32,833 nt of DNA, from contig QIGT01000483.1 in the NCBI GenBank assembly GCA_003230835.1, positions 1 through 32,833 of the forward strand, written 5' to 3'. Both the position numbers and the translations under genes were made by a program. This DNA comes from Gammaproteobacteria bacterium (GTDB lineage Bacteria; Pseudomonadota; Gammaproteobacteria; Pseudomonadales; Azotimanducaceae). This document shows, piece by piece, positions 6,364-17,550 of this stretch. The notes below the pieces were generated by a model that ran no database searches, had not been told where the DNA came from, and saw only the letters and a list, made by a program, of their open reading frames with translations. Every line of letters begins with the position of its first letter. Position 1 is the stretch's first letter.

Positions 6364-6372
6364 ATATATATA

Positions 6373-6740
<368 letters not shown>

Positions 6741-14333: not shown

Positions 14334-14723
14334 TTACCGTTTGGAGAACTGTGGACGCTTGCGCGCTTTACGCAAGCCAACTTTCTTGCGCTCCACTTCA
14401 CGCGCATCACGCGTGAGAAATCCGGCCGCTCGCATTGGAGCGCGTAGATTTTCATCATATTCTACCAATGCTCGCGCAATACCATGACGAATCGCACCCG
14501 CTTGACCTGAATTTCCACCACCTTTTACGGTAATTTTTAAATCAAGCTTCGACGTGAGCTCAGCAACCTCCAAAGGTTGTCGGACTACCATGCGCGATGT
14601 TTCACGACCAAAAAATTCGTCCAGAGACTGCTTATTCACAGTGATCTGACCGGATCCGCTGGCTAGGAAAACACGCGCGGCTGAGGTCTTGCGGCGACCC
14701 GTTCCATAACTATAGTCGGTCAT
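14334..14723 (-). CDS. rpsI: 30S ribosomal protein S9
   Basis: Small-subunit protein whose C-terminal tail reaches the P-site tRNA. The family start [52 protein letters not shown] and the basic end [16 protein letters not shown] are all present, finishing with the conserved Ser-Lys-Arg. 129 aa, normal. The ATG overlaps the rplM stop by four bases, so S9 is co-translated with L13. The 113-bp gap to petA contains no gene; a pet promoter may lie there but I could not assign one. Confidence 0.99.
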
Positions 14724-15154
14724 GCGTTAATCTCCAGGATGGTCGGTTGCTGGGCAGCATGAGGGTGTTGCGCACCCGCATAGACTTTCAGTTTTCTAAA
14801 CATGGCGCGGCCGAGTGGATTGCGTGGCAACATACCTTTCACAGCTTTTTCTATGATGCGCTCAGGGTGAGTTTCACGCATGGCTGCAACACTGGTGCCC
14901 TTAATGCCACCCGGATAGCCACTGTGCCGCCAATAAATTTTGTCGGTTTCTTTTTTACCGGTAACGCGGACCTTTTCGGCATTAACAACAATTATAAAAT
15001 CGCCGGTATCCACATGCGGAGTATACTCTGGCTTATGCTTCCCACGCAGACGATGCGCTATTTCCGTCGCTATTCGTCCGAGTGTTTTACTCTCTGCATC
15101 AACCACCCACCATGTCCTTTCGACATCTTGGTCACGCATGCTTACTGTTTTCAT
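14720..15154 (-). CDS. rplM: 50S ribosomal protein L13
   Basis: Early-assembly large-subunit protein. [20 protein letters not shown] near residue 14, [19 protein letters not shown] near 36, [14 protein letters not shown] near 74 and [19 protein letters not shown] near 98 identify it. 144 aa against 142 in E. coli. The ATG has a good AGAGG Shine-Dalgarno. It is the first gene of rplM-rpsI with its own promoter and a leader of about 77 nt. L13 is known to repress this operon in E. coli, so the structured leader here is a candidate target. Confidence 0.99.
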
Positions 15155-15177
15155 TCTGTGCCTCTAGCTTCTTTTTT

Positions 15178-15207
15178 AACCATTTGTGCGCGAACCATTT
15201 GTGCGCG
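15178..15207 (-). repeat. Perfect 15-bp tandem duplication in the rplM leader
   Basis: The 15-mer AACCATTTGTGCGCG occurs twice in direct succession (15178-15192 and 15193-15207, plus strand). It lies 24 bp upstream of the rplM start codon and contributes both arms of the hairpin described separately. Confidence 0.95.
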
Positions 15208-15213
15208 CACAAA
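15183..15213 (-). promoter_or_regulatory. Strong hairpin in the rplM mRNA leader
   Basis: In the mRNA UUUGUGCGCG (complement of 15204-15213) pairs perfectly with CGCGCACAAA (complement of 15183-15192), a 10-bp stem around an 11-nt loop. A competing perfect 16-bp palindrome covers 15198-15213. A smaller CCCA/UGGG hairpin lies just upstream (about 15219-15231). The stem ends about 29 nt before the start codon and is not followed by a U tract, so it looks like a translational control element rather than a terminator; the link to L13 is inferred. Confidence 0.6.
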
Positions 15214-15238
15214 AGTCCCCCCATTTTTGGGAGCGCGA

Positions 15239-15267
15239 ATGATAAATTAGCCATCGGGTCATTACAA
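15239..15267 (-). promoter_or_regulatory. rplM-rpsI promoter
   Basis: Minus-strand TTGTAA (complement of 15262-15267), a 17-bp spacer and TATCAT (complement of 15239-15244; 5/6 match) form a good sigma-70 promoter. The TCGCGC that follows is a GC-rich discriminator typical of ribosomal promoters under ppGpp control. Predicted transcription start is about 15232, giving a leader of about 77 nt. It lies between the zapE stop and rplM, so rplM need not depend on zapE transcription. Confidence 0.65.
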
Positions 15268-15308
15268 CACCGGTTTAGTCTTCATTTGCCGCTAGCTCAT
15301 GCCTGCGC

Positions 15309-16433
15309 TCATGTCTGCTGAAGAGGATGGGAAGCCGCCTGATGAGACCTACCCAAATACTCGTGCGACTGCATTTCCAGTAATCGACTTTGGGTGCGTT
15401 CGAATTCAAAACGCAATCGCTCGCCTTGATAAAGACTCAAAATAGGCTCCGCGGCACTGATGATGAGTTTTACGCCATGATCATAAAACTCATCCACAAG
15501 GCTGATGAACCGGCGCGCAGCATCTTCGTTGCTGGCGGTCAGTCTCGGAACGTTACTCAATACCACCGCGTGGTAGATCATAGCCAGTTCAATATAGTCA
15601 TTTTGGCTGCGCGGACCTTCACACAAATCGGTAAAATCAAACCAAACCACGTCATCTGCTACTTGGCGCGCGCGAATATCTCGTCCCTCAATATTCAACA
15701 TCACTTCAATTTGTGGTTGTTCGGGTGCAAGTGCTGTAAAACTACGGCTCAAGCTTTGTTCTGCCGCTGCATCCAATGGCCAATGGTAAATTTCTGCCTG
15801 TTCCAGGGTACGCAGCCGAAAATCTACACCTGCTTGTATGGCATGCACAAAGGTGTGTTCATACAAAAGATCAATGGCGGGAAGGAAACGCCGCCTTTGC
15901 AAACCGTTCTCATATAACCGCCTAGGCTCTACATTAGAGGTAGCCACTAAGGTAACACCTAATGCGAAGAGCTCAGCCATGACCTCTGCGAGGATCATCG
16001 CATCGCCAATGTCTGCAACAAAAAATTCATCGAAACACAATACTTGCGTCTCCTGGGCAAATTCTTGTGCAACTTTGCGCAGTGGGTTGGCGGTACCCGA
16101 CCAACGTGTCAAACCCTCATGAACACGACGCATGAAGCGGTGGAAGTGCATCCGCAACCTGGTCTGGGGTGGCAGAGTGTCATAAAAAAGGTCCATCAGC
16201 ATGGTCTTACCCCGCCCAACACCACCCCAAATATACAAGCCCTCGATAGGTTTCTCAGGCTCTTTACGACCCAGGCGTGACCACCATTTTAACCAACCCT
16301 GGGGCTTGCGCGGGCGATTTTGCAATCGCTGATACAGATCTTCGAACAAAGACACCACTTGCGCTTGCGCGGCGTCTTGAAGAAACTCACCGGTCCCAAG
16401 TTTCTCGTAATATTTTTTTGCAGGAGATTGCAC
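15309..16433 (-). CDS. zapE: ZapE (AFG1-type ATPase), cell-division-associated
   Basis: P-loop ATPase of the AFG1 family; in E. coli ZapE associates with the Z-ring late in constriction. Walker A GGVGRGKT is at residues 70-77, then LRMHFHRFMRRVHEGL, Walker B VLCFDEFFVADIGDA, LVATSNVEPRRLYENGLQR and the C-terminal DEFYDHGVKLIISAAEP. I propose the GTG at 16433 (MQSPAKKYYEKLG) because it gives 374 aa, equal to the E. coli protein (375), and aligns with its N-terminus; the open frame continues upstream to 16583 inside degS. The Shine-Dalgarno is weak, so the start is uncertain. Divergent from degS. Confidence 0.93.
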   Translation of the reverse strand: MQSPAKKYYEKLGTGEFLQDAAQAQVVSLFEDLYQRLQNRPRKPQGWLKWWSRLGRKEPEKPIEGLYIWGGVGRGKTMLMDLFYDTLPPQTRLRMHFHRFMRRVHEGLTRWSGTANPLRKVAQEFAQETQVLCFDEFFVADIGDAMILAEVMAELFALGVTLVATSNVEPRRLYENGLQRRRFLPAIDLLYEHTFVHAIQAGVDFRLRTLEQAEIYHWPLDAAAEQSLSRSFTALAPEQPQIEVMLNIEGRDIRARQVADDVVWFDFTDLCEGPRSQNDYIELAMIYHAVVLSNVPRLTASNEDAARRFISLVDEFYDHGVKLIISAAEPILSLYQGERLRFEFERTQSRLLEMQSHEYLGRSHQAASHPLQQT

Positions 16434-16500
16434 GGCGCGGGACTTTAGCGAGTCGCTTAATTCAAAGCAATACAGTTTAATTCCAATCAATGAAAAAGAT

Positions 16501-17550
16501 ATGAGCCAATTGACCAGATTCATCCTGATACCCGCAGTAGTGGGGGCATTCCTTGGCATTGCGATAATCGGGTTACAAGCCACTCAAACAGACAAACCCG
16601 GTTATGCCAGCGCCGTATCCAAAGCAGCACCAGCAGTCGTCAATATTTACGCATCCAAACTTTCTCGAAGCGGCCTGCCTTGTCGCAACCCTAACTATCG
16701 AAGCTTATGCGAGCGCTTTCCAGGCAACGCACAGGTTCAAAACTCGCTGGGATCCGGGGTCATTATTCGCAACGACGGCTACATATTGACCAACGAACAC
16801 GTCATCAAAGAAGCCGATGAAATTTTGGTCATGTTCGCGAATAACCAAACTGCCATCGCACAAGTTATCGGTAGCGATCCACACACAGACTTAGCTGTGG
16901 TTAAGGTGGCTGCGCAAAATCTACCGGTCATTTCACAGTTGCACGGAGATTTGCCAGAAGTAGGCGATGTTGCGCTCGCCATAGGTAACCCTTTCGGGCT
17001 GGGTCACAGCGTCTCACAAGGCATCATCAGTGCTTTTTCCCGCACGGTGATTACCGACAGCCCCTATGACGACTTCATCCAAACAGACGCTGCCATCAGC
17101 CCAGGCAGCTCTGGGGGCGCATTGATAGACTATGAGGGGCGCCTACTGGGCATCAACACTCTAATCTTTTCACAAACCGGCGGTAACGAAGGCATAGGCT
17201 TTGCGATTCCCGCCCACATCGCTTTGTATGTCATGAGGGAAATCGTTGAACATGGTCGTGTGATACGCGGTTGGCTTGGTGTCAGCTTAGCACTACAACC
17301 GCTAGCAGACACAACCACTGGGCTACGCGTGACCCGGGTAGCGAATCAAGGTCCTGCCGACCAAGCAGGCATCAAAGCAGGTGATATTGTTTTGTCGGTA
17401 AATGAGGTATCCGCCAACAATGCCTATGCGATTACGGACGTCATCGCACGATCTCGTCCTGGTGAAGAAATTCAAATAGAAATTATGCGTAAACAACAAC
17501 GCTTTCACGCCATAGCAGTGGCTGGCGATCTGCCTAACCCCAGTCGTTAA
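16501..17550 (+). CDS. degS: DegS/AlgW-type periplasmic serine protease, membrane anchored
   Basis: Inner-membrane-anchored HtrA protease that senses misfolded outer-membrane proteins and starts the cleavage cascade freeing sigma-E/AlgU. An N-terminal membrane anchor (about residues 5-26) is followed by the protease domain with the triad His100 (TNEHVI), Asp130 (HTDLAV) and Ser204 (GSSGG), and a single PDZ domain (about 255-345). One PDZ and the anchor fit DegS rather than DegP/DegQ. The loop before the GSGV strand has Cys61 and Cys70, reminiscent of the DegP LA-loop disulfide. Neighbours zapE, his and murA match algW in Pseudomonas. 349 aa. Confidence 0.92.
   Translation: MSQLTRFILIPAVVGAFLGIAIIGLQATQTDKPGYASAVSKAAPAVVNIYASKLSRSGLPCRNPNYRSLCERFPGNAQVQNSLGSGVIIRNDGYILTNEHVIKEADEILVMFANNQTAIAQVIGSDPHTDLAVVKVAAQNLPVISQLHGDLPEVGDVALAIGNPFGLGHSVSQGIISAFSRTVITDSPYDDFIQTDAAISPGSSGGALIDYEGRLLGINTLIFSQTGGNEGIGFAIPAHIALYVMREIVEHGRVIRGWLGVSLALQPLADTTTGLRVTRVANQGPADQAGIKAGDIVLSVNEVSANNAYAITDVIARSRPGEEIQIEIMRKQQRFHAIAVAGDLPNPSR

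Follow-up and report, generated by a model that had tools for sequence, protein, structure and literature searches.

The rplM leader in this stretch of gammaproteobacterial DNA contains a short tandem duplication, a palindrome that overlaps it and a strong predicted hairpin, and the question that it raises is whether the hairpin serves ribosomal protein L13 as a site for repression of its own operon, perhaps by switching between two alternative folds, as the first-pass annotation of the sequence had proposed, or whether it is a spacer left by a local duplication. The stretch analysed, which we refer to as the window, is one whole contig of 32,833 nucleotides (G000:C4) from a 4.05-Mb assembly of 534 contigs with a completeness of 92.67%.

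The genes at the locus are those first assigned from the letters alone, Pfam confirming L13, S9 and an AFG1 ATPase upstream, and the order zapE-rplM-rpsI on the minus strand is the same as in E. coli. The gap between zapE and rplM is 154 nt long, and the duplication, the hairpin and the promoter all lie within it. Elsewhere in the window, a full-length class A RNase P RNA (348 bits) is found at 6372-6738 on the minus strand. The features of the rplM locus, in window coordinates, are the following.

14334-14723, minus strand: rpsI, ribosomal protein S9 (PF00380), with a 4-nt overlap with rplM
14720-15154, minus strand: rplM, ribosomal protein L13 (Pfam PF00572), with its ATG at 15154
15161-15165, minus strand: likely Shine-Dalgarno sequence AGAGG, 6 nt before the ATG and outside the long hairpin
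15178-15192, minus strand: tandem repeat copy 2, the 3' arm of the long hairpin (exact sequence match)
15193-15207, minus strand: tandem repeat copy 1, the palindrome's right part and the loop (exact sequence match)
15178-15217, minus strand: long hairpin of 14 pairs with one bulge, plus two weak loop pairs (predicted fold, -18.4 kcal/mol alone)
15198-15213, minus strand: 16-bp palindrome TTTGTGCGCGCACAAA, exact, its own hairpin weak (-3.3 kcal/mol alone)
15219-15232, minus strand: small hairpin UCCCA-AAAA-UGGGG at the predicted mRNA 5' end (predicted fold)
15233-15238, minus strand: GC-rich discriminator TCGCGC (from the sequence; conserved in the genus)
15239-15244, minus strand: -10 hexamer TATCAT (promoter scan)
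15262-15267, minus strand: -35 hexamer TTGTAA (promoter scan)
15309-16583, minus strand: zapE/AFG1-like ATPase frame upstream of the promoter (PF03969), its true start possibly inside the frame

The duplication consists of two exact copies of CGCGCACAAATGGTT, at 15207-15193 and 15192-15178 on the minus strand, and the tract that they form (15178-15207) overlaps the palindrome. For this 15-nt duplication, as for the paired arms and the 16-bp palindrome, the first-pass annotation is exact, coordinates included. In the 4.05-Mb assembly CGCGCACAAATGGTT has exactly two exact occurrences, both of them the tandem copies, and within the whole window this is the sole perfect tandem duplication with a unit of 10-40 nt. 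A chance origin is ruled out by 20 mononucleotide shuffles of the window, which gave no such duplication, and by an expectation of about 3e-5 for a 15-nt unit. The arms of the long hairpin, UUUGUGCGCG and CGCGCACAAA, are paired over 10 bp, and four more pairs below the bulge bring the stem to 14. The earlier suggestion of a stem built by local duplication is supported, the duplication not being a matter of chance, and on the sequences compared here the hairpin's probable origin by duplication is well supported.

To place the stem among relatives we used 40 genomes of the genus, the window's own included, 38 of which have an rplM match (none in G022 and G060). With one near locus, L084, these 38 loci make up 39 upstream regions, which were surveyed for the best duplication and the longest stem of each. 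Among the 39, the CGCGCAC duplication and the 10-bp core stem are found in the window and its sister G031 only. The duplication and hairpin are in this way lineage-specific, as first suspected, being present in 2 of the 38 genus genomes with rplM, the window included; conservation of the stem in relatives, on which the first-pass annotation had staked its proposal, is absent beyond the sister. A BLAST search of the 40 genomes with the 151-nt leader region matched five, the window itself among them. The G031 match spans nearly the whole region at 91% identity, and the matches in G009, G027 and G008 are shorter parts that include the -10 hexamer. In G031 the tandem copies differ from one another at 3 of 15 positions, all 14 pairs of the hairpin are kept and the palindrome is intact at 16 of 16 positions. 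Two of the pairs are altered one-sidedly, as wobbles, and none on both sides, so that the covariation that had been looked for across relatives does not appear between the window and G031, a comparison of two sequences that are too few for covariation or selection to be read from them.

A single GTGCGCTCAC stands at the corresponding place in G009 and looks like the unduplicated state of a relative, or the precursor state, and G014 carries a near match to its core. Tandem duplications of at least 80% identity occur in 9 of the 39 upstream regions (window and G031 included), a few of them short enough for chance; other examples are one of 16 nt in G018 (15/16 identical) and an exact one of 10 nt in RHO1_bin_72. 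Local duplication therefore seems to be a usual mode of change in the rplM leaders of the genus. At locus L022 (G016), six tandem copies of the octamer CAAAGAAT lie 172-219 nt before rplM, at the far end of the examined stretch.

The promoter has a different history from that of the leader. TTGTAA-N17-TATCAT (15267-15239) scores 9/12, with one match found against 0.4 expected in shuffles, and as a scan match alone this putative sigma70-type promoter is weak; it becomes convincing because it is conserved across the genus. A -10 element TAnnAT followed by (T/G)CGC is present in 37 of the 39 genus or near-genus rplM loci, the exceptions being G013 and G016 (for G016 the upstream stretch examined is 219 nt only), and 35 of these 37 have the -35 element TTGTAA at 16-18 nt from the -10. 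A looser pattern, TTG-spacer-TAnnnT-GC, is likewise found at 37 of the 39 loci and at 93 of 119 loci overall, a wider set that comprises 38 of the 39, E. coli and 80 loci from a genome collection (L084 included), among which are a repeat of G008 (L083) and probably also one of G001 (L085). A number of other Gammaproteobacteria have similar promoter elements, TAGTATTCGCGC for example, mostly some 35-65 nt ahead of rplM.

A transcription start 7 nt beyond the -10 would make the leader about 78 nt long, close to the 77 nt first estimated, and the promoter with a GC-rich discriminator that had been placed upstream of it is borne out by its conservation in 37 of 39 loci. The distance from predicted start to ATG ranges from 29 to 359 nt across these 37 loci, with a median of 158; the promoter, then, is fixed and the leader is not, and on these alignments the predicted rplM promoter with its discriminator is far better conserved than the leader that follows it. 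GC-rich discriminators mark stringent-type ribosomal protein promoters. The window promoter, with TATCAT followed by TCGCGC, conserved in the genus and similar in other Gammaproteobacteria, resembles these and has no evident difference from them, and control by ppGpp may be predicted for it. In E. coli, rplM-rpsI is reported to be under negative stringent control (PMC10931766).

The leader itself is predicted to be well structured. The 95-nt stretch of leader and gene start has a predicted fold of -29 kcal/mol (z -3.46), and against shuffles the leader gives z -3.23 in the window (78 nt) and z -4.00 in G031. An uninterrupted stem of at least 10 bp, G-U pairs allowed, is present in 13 of the 39 leaders, and a 10-bp stem is thus not rare as such. 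Between the long hairpin and the Shine-Dalgarno sequence lies an A-rich linker, and in the predicted fold the GG of AGAGG is paired with early rplM codons. A small hairpin with a CCC-A/T loop-GGG design, placed at the predicted 5' end of the mRNA, recurs genus-wide with varying pairs. Its stability exceeds that of shuffles in the genus with a Wilcoxon p of 0.0013 (n=35), or 0.078 (n=22) when near-duplicates are removed, and in other Gammaproteobacteria with p=0.0005 (n=54), or 0.11 (n=37) after thinning, in a test that took a wrong promoter match in at least two rows (L025, L026). As a conserved element this 5'-terminal hairpin is only suggestive, being only weakly stabler than shuffles.

The proposed switch between two folds supposed that the palindrome competes with the long hairpin. 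The palindrome is exact, as claimed, but the hairpin that it forms by itself has far less stability than its supposed competitor. When the copy-2 arm is prevented from pairing, the best fold weakens from -29.1 kcal/mol to -17.4 in the window, a gap of 11.7, and from -24.7 kcal/mol to -15.7 in G031, a gap of 9.0, and both gaps are too large for a two-state switch. In the window, moreover, the GG of the Shine-Dalgarno sequence (AGAGG, 15165-15161) and the start codon are paired alike in both folds, and a switch is unlikely because of this together with the gap of about 12 kcal/mol. One result does lean towards the two-fold idea: in the window's alternative fold the freed copy-2 tail, UGGUU, pairs with 5 nt of which the last is the first A of AGAGG. 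The two folds of G031 likewise differ somewhat in their pairing around the Shine-Dalgarno sequence. The folding model leads us to expect one hairpin at equilibrium and no switch, and a transient palindrome hairpin during transcription would be possible.

Control of rplM by its own product has a clear precedent. E. coli uL13 is described as repressing its own operon by binding a structured 157-nt 5'UTR, the leader having three hairpins and the Shine-Dalgarno sequence GGGU (PMC10931766), and the rplM-rpsI leaders of Firmicutes and Bacteroidetes are described as structured and structurally distinct from one another (PMC7247131). Papers on rplM leaders found in the open-licence literature concern only E. 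coli, Firmicutes and Bacteroidetes. With the E. coli leader the window shares its place in the zapE-rplM-rpsI order, a GC-rich start region after the -10 and a structured 5'UTR, and with those of Firmicutes and Bacteroidetes it shares being a structured leader of rplM-rpsI. It differs from the E. coli leader in having about 78 nt, two hairpins and AGAGG where E. coli has 157 nt, three hairpins and GGGU.

From E. coli-type leaders we took two sequence blocks, CCCACGTTAC close to the 5' end and TCGAAGGGG in mid-leader, and searched for each with at most one mismatch. Both occur together at 10 of the 119 loci, E. coli among them, whereas the window leader has neither and 0 of the 39 genus or near-genus loci has either, and the motif test for an E. 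coli-type L13 leader is negative. A covariance model of eight E. coli-type leaders left the window and 37 other genus loci unmatched at E up to 1, a result to be read with the short reach of the model, which recovered 2 of 6 left-out related-order loci at E<1. At that threshold it finds L117 and L147 and misses L115 and L139 despite both blocks, and with 0 of 6 matches in loci of other Gammaproteobacteria it is uninformative at distance. The Rfam collection includes the Firmicutes L13 leader. Positions 14900-15500 of the window had no match to any Rfam family at E up to 5, and the rplM loci of three relatives had none at E up to 1.

These results bear most directly on a lineage-specific L13 operator, in which excess L13 would bind the hairpin and block rplM initiation, the role known from E. 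coli being played by an unrelated RNA structure. Repression of the E. coli operon through a structured 5'UTR (PMC10931766) lends this some plausibility, and the unrelated leaders of Firmicutes and Bacteroidetes (PMC7247131) imply that new ones do arise; the hairpin lies just before the Shine-Dalgarno sequence and is kept in G031, and other subgroups of the genus have Shine-Dalgarno-proximal stems of their own. The absence of E. coli-type motifs from all 39 loci and of any Rfam match at E up to 5 speaks against it, as do the 36 of 38 genus genomes with rplM in which the duplication and stem were not found, the lack of compensatory change between the window and G031, and a Shine-Dalgarno sequence that the long hairpin does not cover. 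The L13 autoregulatory element of the first-pass annotation is thereby left with neither E. coli-type motifs nor an Rfam family nor compensatory change, and we consider such an operator unlikely. The evidence does not support an L13 switch in the window hairpin, which is a possible regulatory element of its lineage.

The leaders of the other species offer a second view of the same question. With the window and its sister excluded, the segment of 45 nt at -60..-16 has a more stable fold than its dinucleotide shuffles (mean z -0.83, n=20, p=0.012; with stricter thinning n=16, p=0.039), p-values that are optimistic, the segment having been picked after a scan of nine positions. The controls gave a mean z of -0.11 on the reverse strand and -0.08 for a segment of the same length ahead of the -35 box, and in several species the z of the segment itself is positive or near 0. 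There is perhaps selected structure in the rplM leaders of the genus, which may not be purely neutral spacers.

In subgroup A, which consists of five species (G020, G015, G016, G005 and G058), the last 110 nt before rplM and 12 nt of the gene have a mean column identity of 91%. Four of the five have a full leader, and among these the mean identity is 88% over the final 100 nt, compared with 54% and 49% for the two 100-nt stretches that precede it. The last 73 leader nt (L018 1930-2002, minus strand; L021 1419-1491; L022 1930-2002, minus strand; L025 1419-1491; L169 1419-1491) reach a mean column identity of 93%, and further upstream the leader differs. These leaders are predicted to form a 10-bp stem whose 3' arm can also pair with a nearer partner in an exclusive inner hairpin, at -14.0 to -17.1 kcal/mol for the stem against -7.7 to -10.1 for the nearer pairing. 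Two-sided changes in the stem are absent across the five species, in which its pairs hardly vary. A covariance model of subgroup A, searched against 38 sources, recovered its five members and gave no other match below E 4.5, the window being unmatched. As a candidate regulatory RNA, the subgroup A leader is stronger than that of the window.

Six further species (L014, L015, L016, L023, L029 and L065) form subgroup B and have a stem CCA..CUCGGA/UCCGGG.UGG before the Shine-Dalgarno sequence, within about 70 nt of rplM, as well as a conserved AAGCG(C/T)T block. Two pairs of this stem are changed on both sides across the six species, a count that is equalled by 72 of 500 shuffles. GCGTTGA-like words recur in several subgroups, among species that are related and under a shuffle control that ignores kinship. 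A common leader motif for the whole genus is rejected, the subgroup A model finding only its own members and the GCGTTGA-like words coming from related species. From what the alignments suggest, the stems of the subgroups would have in common with the window hairpin their position and not a demonstrable ancestry.

A broader form of the L13 hypothesis would take the rplM leaders of the genus to be fast-evolving, non-homologous L13 operators downstream of a fixed promoter, each sub-lineage building its Shine-Dalgarno-proximal stem out of nearby sequence, which in the lineage of the window happened through a tandem duplication. In the window and in subgroup A, an arm with a near or a far partner would then give two exclusive hairpins, which might form one after the other as the RNA is transcribed and be recognised by L13. 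We regard this as quite improbable.

The E. coli rplM leader also provides a model in which the hairpin acts on transcription, since its hairpin hp3, which has no U-run, is reported to terminate transcription and to be counteracted by the helicase SrmB (PMC6736130). By analogy the window hairpin, which is strong and likewise has no U-run, might pause or partly terminate transcription in the leader. It is UGGUUAAAAAAG, however, that comes after the 10-bp core, the scan for terminators picks out the small 5' hairpin and not the long one, and nothing points to homology with the E. coli leader, so that we hold an hp3-like role to be highly improbable. Least probable of all is that the palindrome acts as DNA, as the site where a dimeric repressor would bind just past the transcription start: it is kept at 16 of 16 positions in G031, stands some 20-35 nt beyond the predicted start and, with at most two mismatches, has six places in the assembly against one for a reversed control pattern, but the four examined of the five other places all fall within open frames that exceed 300 codons from stop to stop and hence give no sign of a regulon, which leaves an operator regulon unsupported, and upstream of rplM the palindrome (at most two mismatches) occurs at just 2 of the 39 loci, G000 (the window) and G031.

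The reading that we prefer, with a probability of roughly 0.6, is that of an ordinary rplM-rpsI operon with a conserved sigma70-type promoter and a passive, lineage-specific spacer hairpin derived from a slippage duplication. The GC-rich discriminator would fit growth-rate control of rplM-rpsI of the ppGpp/DksA type. Before the window species and G031 diverged, slippage may have duplicated 15 nt that took in the right part of the palindrome, whereupon the left part could have paired with the new copy to form a strong stem-loop upstream of the A-rich linker and the Shine-Dalgarno sequence. The effect of this stem-loop would probably be passive, in that it would space the start site from the 5' end and keep the leader from pairing with the Shine-Dalgarno sequence, and it might also slow decay from the 5' end. 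Several findings count against a passive hairpin. All 14 pairs and the palindrome are kept in G031, whose leader is 91% identical, and this could reflect selection; the leader folds well below shuffles in both the window and G031; the -60..-16 segment folds better than shuffles across the genus; and the copy-2 tail pairs beside the Shine-Dalgarno sequence when the arm is open.

If the stem is regulatory, it would be a case of a ribosomal protein leader made by one small duplication, with G009 seemingly keeping the single-copy state. If it is not, the case is a warning that slippage may incidentally leave a strong and tidy hairpin before a ribosomal protein gene. What is conserved in the control of rplM across this genus is the promoter with its discriminator, and not one common leader fold.
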